From positions 1 through 64,000 of the forward strand of contig CAJOGK010000005.1 in the NCBI GenBank assembly GCA_905234145.1: 64,000 nt of DNA, written 5' to 3'. The notes beneath the pieces were generated by a model. That model saw only the letters and a program-made list of their open reading frames with translations. It made no database searches and was not told the origin of the DNA. The position numbers and the translations under genes were made by a program. How positions within the stretch are numbered: the stretch's first letter is position 1; every line of letters starts with the position of its first letter. Source of the stretch: an uncultured Prevotella sp. (GTDB lineage: Bacteria > Bacteroidota > Bacteroidia > Bacteroidales > Bacteroidaceae). Shown here one piece after another: positions 21,931-56,599 of this stretch.

Positions 21931-21946
21931 CACCCAAAAAGCAGTG

Positions 21947-22987
21947 ATGGCCGACGAGAAGAAGGTGTTAATGGGTATGTCGCTTAGCGAATTGAAGTCT
22001 GTCGTAAAGGATTTGGGAATGCCCCAATTCACGGCAGGCCAGATTGCCAAGTGGCTCTATCAGCAGCACGTAGGGAGCATCGACGAAATGACGAATATCT
22101 CGAAAGCTAATCGCGAGAAACTGGCTGAGCAATATACTATCGGCGCAATGGCTCCTATCGATTGCCAGCGTTCGAAAGACGGTACGATTAAGTATCTCTT
22201 CCCTACGCAAGACGGCAAATTCGTGGAAACGGTTTATATTCCTGATGGCGATCGTGCCACGCTTTGTGTATCGTGCCAGGTAGGCTGCAAAATGAACTGT
22301 CTGTTCTGTCAGACGGGTAAGCAGGGCTTTGAGGGCTCGCTTTCTGCTGGTGATATCCTGAACCAGATTTATGCCCTGCCCGAGCGCGAAACGTTGACAA
22401 ATATCGTGTTTATGGGACAGGGCGAGCCGATGGATAACCTCGACAATGTGCTCAGGGCCACGGAGATACTAACGGCCGACTATGGTTACGGGTGGAGTCC
22501 GAAACGCATTACGGTGAGTAGCGTAGGCGTGAAAAACAAGCTAAAACGCTTCTTGGATGAGAGTGAGTGCCATGTGGCCATCTCGATGCACTCGCCCCTG
22601 CCTGAACAGCGCCAACAACTGATGCCTGCTGAGCGACAGATGTCGATCGTAGAGGTGGTAGACTTGCTAAAGCAATACGATTTTACCCATCAGCGTCGCT
22701 GCTCGTTTGAGTATATCTGCTTTGCAGGACTTAACGATACCACGATGCATGCCCGGGAAATCGTAAAGCTGTTGCAGGGCTTGGAGTGCAGGGTAAACCT
22801 GATTCGGTTCCACGAGATTCCTGATGTGGATTTGCCAGGGGCTGACGAGAAAAGGATGGAGGCACTGCGTGATTACCTGACCAACCACGGGGTATTTACC
22901 ACCATCCGTGCGAGCAGAGGGCAGGATATCTTTGCCGCCTGCGGCCTGCTATCCACGGCTGTTAAAGGTAAAAAGGTAAAAAAGTAA
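21947..22987 (+). CDS. rlmN: 23S rRNA (adenine2503-C2)-methyltransferase
   Basis: Radical SAM CQVGCKMNCLFCQTG; FMGQGEPMDNLDNV; C-terminal catalytic Cys region. Confidence 0.95.
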   Translation: MADEKKVLMGMSLSELKSVVKDLGMPQFTAGQIAKWLYQQHVGSIDEMTNISKANREKLAEQYTIGAMAPIDCQRSKDGTIKYLFPTQDGKFVETVYIPDGDRATLCVSCQVGCKMNCLFCQTGKQGFEGSLSAGDILNQIYALPERETLTNIVFMGQGEPMDNLDNVLRATEILTADYGYGWSPKRITVSSVGVKNKLKRFLDESECHVAISMHSPLPEQRQQLMPAERQMSIVEVVDLLKQYDFTHQRRCSFEYICFAGLNDTTMHAREIVKLLQGLECRVNLIRFHEIPDVDLPGADEKRMEALRDYLTNHGVFTTIRASRGQDIFAACGLLSTAVKGKKVKK

Positions 22988-23000
22988 AAAGGTAAAAAAG
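22964..23000. repeat. 8/9-nt tandem repeat aaggtaaaa
   Basis: aaaggtaaaaaggtaaaaaagtaaaaaggtaaaaaag; encodes the last residues and stop of RlmN. Confidence 0.9.
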
Positions 23001-25095: not shown

Positions 25096-26376
25096 TTGTC
25101 AACTCAAATGAAGATTTCAGAACTTCAAAGTATCAAACAGCGGTACAATATCGTAGGTAACTGCGATGCATTGAACCATGCGCTCGATGTCGCCCTTCAG
25201 GTGGCACCGACTGATCTCTCCGTGCTGATTGTGGGAGAAAGCGGTGTGGGTAAGGAAATCATTCCTCGTATGATTCACGACAATTCGCCACGTAGACGCG
25301 AGAAGTATTTTGCCATTAACTGCGGTTCTATCCCAGAGGGCACTATCGACTCTGAGCTCTTCGGCCATATTAAGGGTTCGTTTACGGGTGCTATCAACGA
25401 TTCGCCCGGTTATTTCGGTGTGGCTAATAAGGGTACGCTTTTTCTCGATGAGGTGGGAGAGTTGCCACTGGCTACGCAAGCACGATTGCTGCGTGTGCTC
25501 GAAACAGGCGAATATATCCCAGTGGGTGCTACTGAGGTGCGCAAGACTGATGTTCGCATCGTAGCCGCTACCAACGTGAATATCCAGAAGGCCATCAGCG
25601 AGGGGCGTTTCCGTGAGGATTTGTATTACCGCCTGAACTCCATCCCCATCCAGATGCCACCTTTGCGCGAACGTGGTGAGGACATCGTGCTGCTGTTCCG
25701 CTTGTTTGCCATGCAGATGGCTGAGAAATACAAGATGGATCGTGTGGTGCTCGATGAGAATGCCAAGCAGTTGCTCGTGCATTATAAGTGGCCTGGCAAC
25801 GTGCGCCAACTGAAAAATATCACCGAGCAGATTTCCATCCTCTCGCCAGAGCGACTGATTACGGCTGATGTGCTCAGCAAGTTTATCCCCCAAGATACGG
25901 AAACCACGCAATTGGCTACCATCCATCGCGAGGGTGACCACTCGTTTGAGAACGAACGCGAGATTCTTTACAAGATTCTCTTCGAACTGCGAGGCAACGT
26001 AAAGGATATGCGACAGGAAATCAGCATGCTGAAAAAACGGATCGAGGAAGTGCAGACGGCCAAGCCCGTGGGGGGGCATCCCTCTGACAGCTTGCCTACC
26101 ACACAGCTGTCACCTATCAATACCGTGCAGCCTATCTCTTCCGTGTCTTCGGTTTCTCCCATGCATGTTACAGCTGAGGATGCCATCGCGGAGGAATATG
26201 TAGAGCCCGAAAAGGAGCCCGAGAATCTGAATTTGAACGATATCAGCAAGCAAATGCTCGAAAAAGCCCTTGAGCGCAATCACGGCAATCGCCGCAAGGC
26301 TGCTCAGGAGCTGGGCATCAGTGACAGAACCCTCTATCGCCGACTGAAACAATATGGACTCGATGGTGAAAGGTAA
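25096..26376 (+). CDS. Sigma-54 interacting transcriptional regulator (AAA+ and Fis HTH, no receiver domain)
   Basis: GESGVGKEIIPRMIH, GSFTGA, FLDEVGELP, Fis-type HTH RRKAAQELGISDRTLYRRLKQYGL. Confidence 0.93.
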   Translation: MSTQMKISELQSIKQRYNIVGNCDALNHALDVALQVAPTDLSVLIVGESGVGKEIIPRMIHDNSPRRREKYFAINCGSIPEGTIDSELFGHIKGSFTGAINDSPGYFGVANKGTLFLDEVGELPLATQARLLRVLETGEYIPVGATEVRKTDVRIVAATNVNIQKAISEGRFREDLYYRLNSIPIQMPPLRERGEDIVLLFRLFAMQMAEKYKMDRVVLDENAKQLLVHYKWPGNVRQLKNITEQISILSPERLITADVLSKFIPQDTETTQLATIHREGDHSFENEREILYKILFELRGNVKDMRQEISMLKKRIEEVQTAKPVGGHPSDSLPTTQLSPINTVQPISSVSSVSPMHVTAEDAIAEEYVEPEKEPENLNLNDISKQMLEKALERNHGNRRKAAQELGISDRTLYRRLKQYGLDGER

Positions 26377-26490
26377 AAAAGTAAAAAGGTAAAAAATGAA
26401 AGATATATTTTTCTCAATAATTAGGCAATTTGGTGTTGGCAAAAAGCTTTGCCATGTTTTACCTTTTTACCTTTTTACCTTTTTACTTTT
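26368..26490. repeat. Inverted pair of ggtaaaaa-type repeats flanking the lptE start
   Basis: gaaaggtaaaaaagtaaaaaggtaaaaaatg (26368-26398) is complementary to ttttacctttttacctttttacctttttactttt (26457-26490). Confidence 0.85.
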
Positions 26491-26950
26491 ATCTTGCTCC
26501 GTAAGCTATAAGTTTAACGGTGCAAGTATCGATTATTCGAAAACCAAGACCATTCAGATTGCTGATTTCCCCATCCGAAGCAGCTTTGTTTGGGGACCCA
26601 TGGGCCCGATGTTCAACAATCGACTGAAAGACCAATATGCGAACCATACCCAGCTGGAGCAGGTGAAGCGTAATGGGGACATGAAGATTGAGGGAGAAAT
26701 CGTGGCTTACGAGCAGCGAAACAAGGGTGTAAGTTCTGAGGGTTATTCATCGATGACAGAACTCTCGATGACCGTCAACGTGCGCTTTACAAACAATAAG
26801 AATCATAATGAAGACTTCGAGCAGCAATTTACGGCTCAAGAAAGTTACGAAAATACGCAGTCGCTCAATGCCGTGCAAGAGTCGCTCGTAGACGTTATGT
26901 GTAAGAACATCTGCGAACAGATATTTAATGCAACCGTAGCCAACTGGTAA
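26396..26950 (+). CDS. lptE: LptE family LPS-assembly lipoprotein
   Basis: Lipobox LLLSCSVSYKFNGASIDYSKTKTIQIADFPIR; operon context. Confidence 0.85.
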   Translation: MKDIFFSIIRQFGVGKKLCHVLPFYLFTFLLLSCSVSYKFNGASIDYSKTKTIQIADFPIRSSFVWGPMGPMFNNRLKDQYANHTQLEQVKRNGDMKIEGEIVAYEQRNKGVSSEGYSSMTELSMTVNVRFTNNKNHNEDFEQQFTAQESYENTQSLNAVQESLVDVMCKNICEQIFNATVANW

Positions 26951-28335: not shown

Positions 28336-28410
28336 GGTGCCCGTAGTTCAGTTGGTTAGAGCGTCAGATTGTGGTTCTGAATGTCGACGGTTCGAGTCCG
28401 TCCGGGCACC
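28336..28410 (+). tRNA. tRNA-His (anticodon GTG)
   Basis: Cloverleaf with GTGCCCG/CGGGCAC acceptor, genomic G-1:C73, anticodon loop TTGTGGT, TTCGAGTCC T-arm, followed by CCA. Confidence 0.97.
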
Positions 28411-54506: not shown

Positions 54507-55619
54507 TCATTTCTGTAGTAGCAATACGATCATTTGCAGGGCGAAGTCGAAGAATACAATCTTCGCGTTGGCATTCTGTCCGATATCGCGAATGGCCAGA
54601 TTAGCCATATCACTGATGGGCAGGATATTTCCCTCGTTCACGAATCGTGCAAAGTTGCGTGCGAAATCTTCTTCCTTCTGAGTCATGTAGCAAAGCTCAG
54701 CCTCATGGAAATTATACATAAAGTTCTCACGCGTCATGCGCAAAAAATAATTCAACCAACGTTTCTGCTTCTCGCGCCCTAAGGCTGCCATCTGTTCGCT
54801 CCATTTGCGCAGGTCTTTTATCTTACGCTGATAAGCCAGTCGCATCAGCATGATATACATGTCGAGGAAGAACTCGTTTTCAGAGCCTACCTGCAATTCT
54901 TCCAAGGCTTTCAGCCAATTGCCGTTAGCTAGTCGGCCAATGCGCTGTGCAGCCTCTTCGCTAATGCCGCGTCGCTCTATAAGCGCTTGGCAGATATCTT
55001 CGTAGCTTGTCTTCTTGATGTCGATGCGCTGAACACGACTGCGGATGGTTTCCAACAGTTTGTCGGGCTCTTCACTAATCATGATAAAGACCGTTTGCTG
55101 TGGCGGTTCTTCAATCAGCTTGAGCAGTTTATTGGCACATTCTATATTCATGCGCTCAGGCAGCCAGATGATACTTACCTTATAGCCGCCTTGACTCGAT
55201 TTCAGCGAGAGCTTGCGCACCAGGTCATCGCTCTCACCAGCCGTGATGATGGCCTGTTGGTTCTCACCGCCCATCATCTGCATCCATTCGTCCATCGAAA
55301 AATAGAGCGTGTCGGTAATCAGTTCGTGCCACTCTTTGGCAAAGTCATCGCTTACAGGCTTGTGTTCTGTGCTCATTGAGGGCAACTTAATTGTGGGGTA
55401 GGTGAAGTGCAGGTCGGGGTGCTCCAGCTTCTGCAGCATAGCTTTCGACGATGGCGAGCCGTTGTCGAGCAGTTTGCAGGCAAAAGCTACTGCCAGTGCC
55501 TTTTTGCCAGCACCTGCAGGCCCGCAAAGCATGATGGCATGCGGCAAACGGTCTTCTTCTACCATCTGCATCAGCCGCGCTTTGGCCTCTTGCTGTCCTA
55601 TCACCTCATCGAATGTCAT
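54507..55619 (-). CDS. holB: DNA polymerase III delta' subunit
   Basis: FDEVIGQQEAKARLMQMVEEDRLPHAIMLCGPAGAGKKALAVAFACKLL; NKLLKLIEEPPQQTVFIMISEEPDKLLETIRSR. Confidence 0.92.
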   Translation of the reverse strand: MTFDEVIGQQEAKARLMQMVEEDRLPHAIMLCGPAGAGKKALAVAFACKLLDNGSPSSKAMLQKLEHPDLHFTYPTIKLPSMSTEHKPVSDDFAKEWHELITDTLYFSMDEWMQMMGGENQQAIITAGESDDLVRKLSLKSSQGGYKVSIIWLPERMNIECANKLLKLIEEPPQQTVFIMISEEPDKLLETIRSRVQRIDIKKTSYEDICQALIERRGISEEAAQRIGRLANGNWLKALEELQVGSENEFFLDMYIMLMRLAYQRKIKDLRKWSEQMAALGREKQKRWLNYFLRMTRENFMYNFHEAELCYMTQKEEDFARNFARFVNEGNILPISDMANLAIRDIGQNANAKIVFFDFALQMIVLLLQK

Positions 55620-55620
55620 C

Positions 55621-55656
55621 TCCTTAACTTCTTAACTCCTTAACTTCTTAACTTTT
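55621..55656. repeat. 8-nt-phased tandem repeat (CTTAACTT/CTTAACTC)
   Basis: tccttaacttcttaactccttaacttcttaactttttt; overlaps the metF stop and the 5' flank of holB. Confidence 0.9.
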
Positions 55657-56599
55657 TTACCACTTCCACCACCGAATCTACAGCCGATACCGTGTAGAAA
55701 TGGATGTTATGAATACCGTGGGCATAGAGTTCGCGACACTGTTCTGTCGTCCATTCGATGCCTAGTTGGCGCGCGTCCTCATCAGTCTTACACTTTACCA
55801 CCTCGCGAGCCAGCGGTTCTGGTATGTCGCAGTGGAAGGTCTTAGGCACTACCGTCAGTTGTGAGAGCTTCGCCATTGGCTTAATGCCTGGAATAATGGG
55901 AATGGTGATACCCATCTTGCGCGCTTTTTCCACGAAGTCGAAATATTTTTGATTGTCAAAGAAAAGCTGCGTTACGGCATATTGCGCCCCGAGGTCTTGC
56001 TTCTCTTTCAGATATTGCATGTCCATTTCAAGGTTGGGCGCTTCTTCGTGCTTCTCGGGGTAGCATGCCACACCGTAATCAAAAGGCTTGCCTGGCTTCT
56101 TGATGGGCGAACCATCAGCAAAAAAACCCTCGTTAAAGCGTTTTACCTGTTTCATCAGCTCTGTGGTATGGGCATGTCCGCCAGGTGTGGGAATAAAGCG
56201 ACTGTCTTCCTTGGCTTTGTCGCCTCTTAACAATAGCAAGTCGCTGATGCCAAGAAATTGCAGGTCGAGCAGTTCGTATTCGATTTCTTCGATGGTGGCA
56301 CCGCTACAAATCACGTGTGGTTGCACGGGTATATTATAGCGTTGCTGGATAGCGGCTGCAATCGCTACCGTACCAGGGCGCCTGCGAATCCTTTGGCGCT
56401 CAAATTGTCCATTGGGCAATTCCTTATACACAAACTCAGAGTGATGGGTGGTAATATTGATATAGGCAGGGTCAAACTCTCGTAGCTTATCTATGTCGGC
56501 AAAGAGTTTTTCCGTGCCTGTACCTTTTAAGGGAGGCAGTACCTCGAAAGAGAACCGCCTGCTGTCTATATCTTGATGAATAAATTGCGTTACGCTCAT
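55640..56599 (-). CDS. metF: Methylenetetrahydrofolate reductase
   Basis: RRFSFEVLPPLKGTGTEKLFADIDKLREFDPAYINITTHHSE; start assigned to MSVTQF because the longer ORF start includes the promoter and repeat. Confidence 0.93.
   Translation of the reverse strand: MSVTQFIHQDIDSRRFSFEVLPPLKGTGTEKLFADIDKLREFDPAYINITTHHSEFVYKELPNGQFERQRIRRRPGTVAIAAAIQQRYNIPVQPHVICSGATIEEIEYELLDLQFLGISDLLLLRGDKAKEDSRFIPTPGGHAHTTELMKQVKRFNEGFFADGSPIKKPGKPFDYGVACYPEKHEEAPNLEMDMQYLKEKQDLGAQYAVTQLFFDNQKYFDFVEKARKMGITIPIIPGIKPMAKLSQLTVVPKTFHCDIPEPLAREVVKCKTDEDARQLGIEWTTEQCRELYAHGIHNIHFYTVSAVDSVVEVVKKLRS

Follow-up and report, generated by a model that had tools for sequence, protein, structure and literature searches.

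Background

The published rule for translation initiation in Bacteroidota is that start regions combine low structure with A-richness (PMC3155529; PMC6847099). In P. bryantii a structure of -5.2 kcal/mol in the start region lowered protein about five-fold, and a hairpin 20 nt upstream of the start was harmless (PMC3155529). The arrays described here resemble these Shine-Dalgarno-less initiation regions in that an A-rich array, without a Shine-Dalgarno role, stands directly 5' of the start, and in that leaders without a T-rich partner are predicted to be mostly open. They differ in being tandem arrays of one genome-wide octamer, the complement of which lies in the same transcript at genes of the lptE type. 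The words "repeat" and "tandem" are absent from the main text of PMC3155529.

Three other kinds of systems invite comparison. Rickettsia palindromic elements and MITEs found in frame within genes (reviewed in PMC10969869) are also dispersed repeats recruited into many unrelated proteins, and the unit at lptE, like them, is bounded by terminal inverted repeats. Unlike them, the copies described here have no internal sequence in common (the lptE loop occurs at lptE only), and the octamer repeat supplies one defined part of the protein, the core of the signal peptide. No target-site duplication is evident by eye at the lptE junctions in comparison with array-free orthologs, and the older signal peptide has been replaced rather than interrupted. 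Simple-sequence-repeat contingency loci share the short tandem unit, indivisible by three, within a coding region, but the octamer arrays are few-copy and dispersed to many loci. Quasipalindrome template switching, a process that makes hairpins (PMC8794818; PMC8604942), might in theory have placed the reverse complement of an A-rich leader in the signal region, which would thereby be T-rich; however, leader units are a mixture of GGT and AGT types, signal arrays are mostly of the GGT type, and no recent copying is visible. Since the unit types differ, also at a synonymous Thr codon, template switching from leader to signal core was rejected as a recent process.

Here we analyze the inverted repeat at the lptE start within the window, i.e. 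the whole stretch of 64,000 nucleotides under study. We regard it as probable, at roughly two chances in three, that this repeat is one instance of a dispersed (GGTAAAAA)n family of Prevotella-group gut and rumen bacteria with two strand-specific roles. In the first role, an A-strand array at a gene junction would end the upstream gene, because it carries TAA in every frame, and its A-rich tract would act as a Shine-Dalgarno-free initiation region for the next gene. In the second, a T-strand array would code for the hydrophobic core of export signals. The lptE gene has both kinds of array, and its unit of leader, start, n-region and core would have replaced an older signal peptide. The sequences themselves show how the locus is built, in which two places the arrays lie, that they recur and that leader and signal array are associated.

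The inverted repeat around the lptE start

The LptE protein scores 66.8 bits against Pfam PF04390 (cut-off 23) and possesses a lipoprotein signal peptide with a lipobox Cys, LLLSC being residues 30-34. Its start is not in doubt, because an in-frame TAA lies two codons 5' of the ATG and there is no other in-frame ATG, GTG or TTG before the right arm. As the initial annotation had proposed, the left arm comprises the stop of the sigma-54 regulator gene and the lptE ATG, and the right arm codes for LPFYLFTFLLL just before the lipobox Cys (Table 1).

Table 1. Features of the lptE locus and other arrays of the octamer family (window positions, or locus of the window's own genome, G000)
Feature	Position	Strand	Remarks
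sigma-54 activator gene	25096-26376	+	PF00158/PF02954; directly upstream of lptE
left arm, A-strand array GGTAAAAA/AGTAAAAA, about 3 units, letters AAAGGTAAAAAAGTAAAAAGGTAAAAA	26369-26395	+	stop/start junction; read as lptE 5' leader
TAA stop of sigma-54 activator gene	26374-26376	+	within left arm
lptE CDS (LptE, PF04390)	26396-26950	+	ATG 26396-26398, the only possible start, at left-arm end
between-arm loop	26399-26456	+	codes for signal-peptide n-region MKDIFFSIIRQFGVGKKLCHV
small perfect hairpin GGCAAAAAGCTTTGCC inside loop	26438-26453	+	from RNA fold; orthologs keep only part
right arm, T-strand array TTTTTACC, 4.2 units, letters TTTTACCTTTTTACCTTTTTACCTTTTTACTTTT	26457-26490	+	in-frame hydrophobic core LPFYLFTFLLL
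LPFYLFTFLLL codons	26459-26491	+	
lipobox Cys codon	26495-26497	+	conserved in orthologs read
A-strand array, the second of the octamer family within the window	22964-22998	+	spans end of rlmN-like ORF 21944-22987, precedes ATG 23003 of PdxA-like ORF; without T-array partner
T-array signal core	C26 and C81 (G000)		TolC-like outer-membrane efflux proteins
T-array signal core	C13 (G000)		GH106-like protein
T-array signal core	C94 (G000)		GldK/PorK
T-array signal core	C99 (G000)		metallophosphatase
T-array signal core, eroded, seventh	C10 (G000)		

The arms had been described as complementary over about 28 nt around a loop of about 60 nt. The repeats themselves are confirmed: positions 26369-26398 match 26453-26482 over 30 AT-rich nt (93% complementary, spacing 54 nt). 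The single pairing register does not hold, because both arms are tandem arrays and spacings of 54, 68, 70 or 76 nt are all possible; in further octamer registers, 26369-26395 pairs with 26464-26490 (27 nt, 93%, spacing 68 nt) and 26377-26395 with 26472-26490 (19 nt, 100%). The two-octamer motif has 8 matches in the window against 0.01 expected, and the inverted repeat around the lptE start is confirmed as real and not due to chance.

A dispersed octamer family read differently on its two strands

Both lptE arms consist of tandem copies of the octamer GGTAAAAA/TTTTTACC and belong to a family dispersed in the same genome and in many Prevotella relatives. This larger point, a dispersed family with two strand-specific uses, had been missed by the initial annotation, although its observation of the arms was real. 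Genome-wide statements on G000 (3.1 Mb, 144 contigs) derive from pattern searches and fetched stretches. The 18-base form has 36 matches there with at most one mismatch (reversed-pattern control: 0), and by our count the genome has about 37 distinct arrays. Arrays of at least three exact units from G000, G104 and G241, classified against open frames, almost all (75 of 77) lie at gene junctions or gene ends or in signal peptides: there are 46 leaders (three of which also allow a second reading), 12 gene-end arrays (some of which precede starts missed by the 80-codon cut), 17 signal-peptide arrays and two others.

A plain-array scan of the genome collection found matches almost only in Prevotella, Segatella and Prevotellaceae records, many of them from ruminants. 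An A-strand array followed by a T-strand array at a gap of 48-78 nt is present in 46 of 249 genomes of the genus, though some of these matches (e.g. in G187 and L180) represent a different kind of palindromic element; the opposite order, T-gap-A, occurs in one genome of 249, at a sole locus (L104 in G156). The elements in G187 (L088, L316-L319) and L180 are intergenic and built with the same octamers, with REP-like palindromes (e.g. AAAAAACCATGCGG..CCGCATGG) between A and T arrays.

The code table suffices to account for the difference between the strands. Since 8 is not a multiple of 3, repeats of TTTTTACC always read as the cycle F-L-P-F-Y-L-F-T and are open in all three frames, whereas repeats of GGTAAAAA contain one TAA per 24 nt in each frame. 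Whatever the frame, the T strand can therefore serve as a hydrophobic core, and an A-strand array fits only outside genes or at a gene end. Most of the A-gap-T orientation bias follows from the stops that an A-strand array within a gene would carry. In the literature searched, with partial coverage, we found no description of the repeat or of its peptide string, and searches for signal peptides encoded by repeats turned up nothing relevant; because of the partial coverage, the novelty is provisional.

Some further repeats were seen in the window. Positions 1-48 form a tandem array (GAAGTTAAA)n, possibly of the same A-rich kind. The 9-mer CACGAATTA/TAATTCGTG and its variants form short arrays at 710, 1491, 10955, 11090, 56629 and 56696. 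Apart from repeats, a tRNA gene was identified 3' of secG, at 28337-28410 (Rfam RF00005, 64.1 bits).

A-strand arrays as leaders at gene junctions

At gene junctions, the stop of the upstream gene usually lies in or adjoins the A-strand array and the next ATG follows just after it. Among the leaders of G000, G104 and G241, the stop of a co-directional upstream frame lies in or adjoins the array in 42 of 46 cases. For arrays without a T partner, a set that still includes signal arrays viewed from the opposite strand, an ATG opening at least 60 codons lies at -3..+15 in 35 of 59; the other strand gives 0 of 59, and random positions 10%. At lptE, too, an A-rich tract stands directly 5' of the start codon. 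We infer from these sequences that A leaders aid initiation of the next gene. On the minus strand of the window, a repeat leader of AAGTTAAG/GAGTTAAG units with one GGTAAAAA (55620-55661) abuts the ATG of the gene at 54507-55619, the product of which we take to be a DNA polymerase III delta'-like protein, judging by its sequence.

T-strand arrays as cores of signal peptides

T-strand arrays form the hydrophobic cores of signal peptides (LPFYLFTFLPL). Six genes of G000, including lptE, have a clear array of this kind (Table 1). Over all fetched loci, a T array combined with a lipobox or cleavage motif occurs in 118 distinct N-termini, 38 of which are lipoprotein-like; these N-termini are not a random sample, because part of the loci were chosen for having both arms. 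They belong to unrelated families: LptE, OEP (TolC-like), GldK, TamL, GH106, metallophosphatase and DUF3108. Scores of signal arrays, nearly equal to their length in nt, cluster at 30-36, and those of leaders spread from 13 to 86. GGT units make up 84% of signal arrays, where the synonymous Thr codon is ACC in 94 cases and ACT in 16.

A different repeat was observed in G008, where the hexamer CGTTNN (127 matches versus 2 in the control) codes for the signal core of lptE and of other genes. These signal peptides (L349-L368, L018) have no complementary leader and represent a second repeat dialect.

Octamer units in surface and envelope genes, not being a multiple of three, could suggest phase-variable contingency loci, in which a T array that gains or loses an octamer would shift the frame and switch the exported protein off. 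We consider this very improbable, given that the arrays have only about 4 units and that in all seven array-bearing lptE orthologs the frame is kept and the array has almost the same length. In addition, lptE is essential in well-studied Gram-negative bacteria.

Leader and signal array in one gene

In G000 an A leader stands before five of the six signal-array genes; if about 30 of 2650 genes are taken to have one, P is about 8e-10. Signal-array genes at loci picked only by their T array have a leader in 20 of 36 cases, other ORFs there in 13 of 331 (P 5e-15, odds ratio 31); a strict definition of the leader gives 11 of 36 and 11 of 331 (P 6e-7). Conversely, no leader precedes roughly half of the array-coded signal peptides at loci picked regardless of leader. 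The association of leader with signal array is thus plain in the sequences, and the two roles taken separately do not explain it.

Because both strands of the repeat sit in one gene, a hairpin may form. The RNA of the lptE region is predicted to fold at -48.2 kcal/mol for 181 nt (z = -5.3; 0 of 200 shuffles equally stable), with stable pairing over the start and an arm duplex of -29.9 kcal/mol. Predicted openness of the -15..+5 segment falls from 0.90 to 0.17 after the right arm is transcribed. In the stepwise fold the start is open up to about 26464 transcribed and closed past about 26472; since it closes late, early ribosome loading or ribosomes finishing the upstream gene could hold it open. 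The earlier suggestion that the initiation region can pair with its own signal-peptide codons is therefore energetically plausible in the model. With the right arm transcribed (predicted P(unpaired) 0.17), lptE would depart from the low structure of Bacteroidota initiation regions. Over the wider set, the predicted unpaired fraction at the start is 0.42 in paired genes versus 0.70 in leaders without a T partner, and the predicted closure of starts in paired genes conflicts with a simple benefit of an open leader. An Rfam search found no known RNA family at the lptE inverted repeat.

These predictions raise the alternative of a selected translational hairpin, in which base pairing between the A leader and the signal-peptide codons shuts the start, coupling translation of the exported protein to the upstream gene; the opener would be the ribosome ending that gene, whose stop lies in the left arm, or early ribosomes. 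The non-random co-occurrence is strong, the orientation of the arms is fixed, and the start is predicted to close upon synthesis of the right arm. By analogy, the published experiment in P. bryantii, with its five-fold loss of translation, makes an effect of lptE-type start structure on translation credible. In 82 of 88 paired genes an upstream ORF has its stop at -90..+12 from the start; however, this is nearly as common among signal-array genes without a leader (25 of 30), and such genes are many. The fixed orientation has a simpler cause in the stop codons of an intragenic A-strand array, and the CGTTNN signal peptides of G008 lack a complementary leader. Nor do the arms appear co-adapted: among 88 genes, same-gene arms pair at -27.1 kcal/mol and swapped arms at -28.1 kcal/mol, so that matched arms are slightly less complementary. 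Leaders paired with a signal array are not shifted to the better-pairing G-rich units, GGT units making up 49% with a signal-array partner versus 48% without. Since any two arrays pair well, the arm swap leaves room for selection for the mere presence of a hairpin, for which the co-occurrence of leader and signal array remains the best argument. Altogether we judge a selected hairpin unlikely, and the case that it was selected to tune lptE, as the initial annotation had envisaged, is weak.

Proposed gain and loss of the unit at lptE

The search for lptE orthologs used the mature protein, which makes the sample independent of the array. All seven species with a T array at lptE (7/7) also have the A leader, and all other readable orthologs have neither, but an ordinary signal peptide and a start ATG that often overlaps the last codons of the activator gene. 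In some species mature LptE is more than 90% identical and yet the signal peptide is wholly different. On the mature-LptE tree the unit is patchy. A single origin was rejected, as the tree needs 5 changes, although only 2 are forced by well-supported branches. Because leader, start, n-region and core are present jointly or absent jointly in these orthologs, they behave as one unit, and we infer from the sequences that leader and signal array were gained at lptE as such. Clear gain of a unit is limited to lptE, other genes showing signal arrays without leaders. In the orthologs of G159, G127, G138, G090, G174, G230, G030 and G031 (e.g. L326, L333, L012) the activator frame runs open into LptE, giving a long frame of about 560-660 aa (e.g. 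..RRLKQFGLATILLLCLLIPTSCSVSYKF), which could be a fusion or contain an internal start.

Among 13 genomes, the lptE loop was found only at lptE of G000 and G022, which share 90% of its DNA and are not neighbours in the mature-LptE tree. For lptE pairs with 70-80% identity of the mature protein, codon identity at equal residues of the signal region is 0.78 if both have the cassette and 0.29 if neither does. In the ortholog pairs G221/G007, L049/L290, L084/L304 and L287/L296 the DNA of leader end, n-region and T array is the same or almost the same despite strong divergence of the flanking codons. This near-identity could come either from recombination that exchanges the unit or from constraint on the nucleotides of the start region. 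Identity of synonymous codons within arrays (95% vs 50%) was set aside as inflated evidence for conservation, because arrays are detected by their own sequence and measures of their conservation are biased; for this reason we relied on n-regions and on the lptE orthologs fetched by mature protein. Unrelated genes share only short ends by the T array, mostly of 14-29 nt (the best, L101/L141, 28 nt at 96%), and no whole loops, and copying of cassettes between different genes was rejected.

A bolder proposal would be a "signal-peptide kit", that is cassettes built from repeats and consisting of an A-array leader, an ATG, an n-region and a T-array core, which would be gained, lost and exchanged as units between species at genes for exported proteins, with a hairpin coupling translation to the upstream gene and with species-specific dialects (octamer GGTAAAAA, hexamer CGTTNN). 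We hold it to be doubtful; exchange as units is only suggested, because the loop identities of homologs do not fall into two clean peaks.

On a neutral explanation, the arrays would be selfish or neutral short repeats, spread by slippage and recombination and lost wherever they do harm. They would persist between genes in the stop-bearing orientation, and in signal peptides, where almost any hydrophobic sequence will do. Signal peptides and junctions between genes are indeed the most tolerant sites, leader units and copy numbers vary freely (scores 13-86), the pair pattern is missing from most genomes of the genus, and many lptE orthologs have ordinary signal peptides. On the other hand, other tolerant sites are nearly free of arrays (2 of 77 classed as other), signal arrays keep a narrow length, and array and n-region DNA is nearly identical between species with diverged flanking codons. 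We regard neutrality as unlikely and prefer a repeat family with two strand-specific roles.

Implications

The usual view of signal peptides is that they change quickly and are unrelated from one protein to the next; here many of their cores come from a single microsatellite-like repeat. As one strand of the repeat gives signal cores and the other would give start regions, a simple repeat may serve as raw material for two basic gene-expression signals. The array genes would thus offer a natural test of the origin of export signals, and also a natural set that breaks the Bacteroidota rule of no structure at the start and could be used in the existing Prevotella reporter system.
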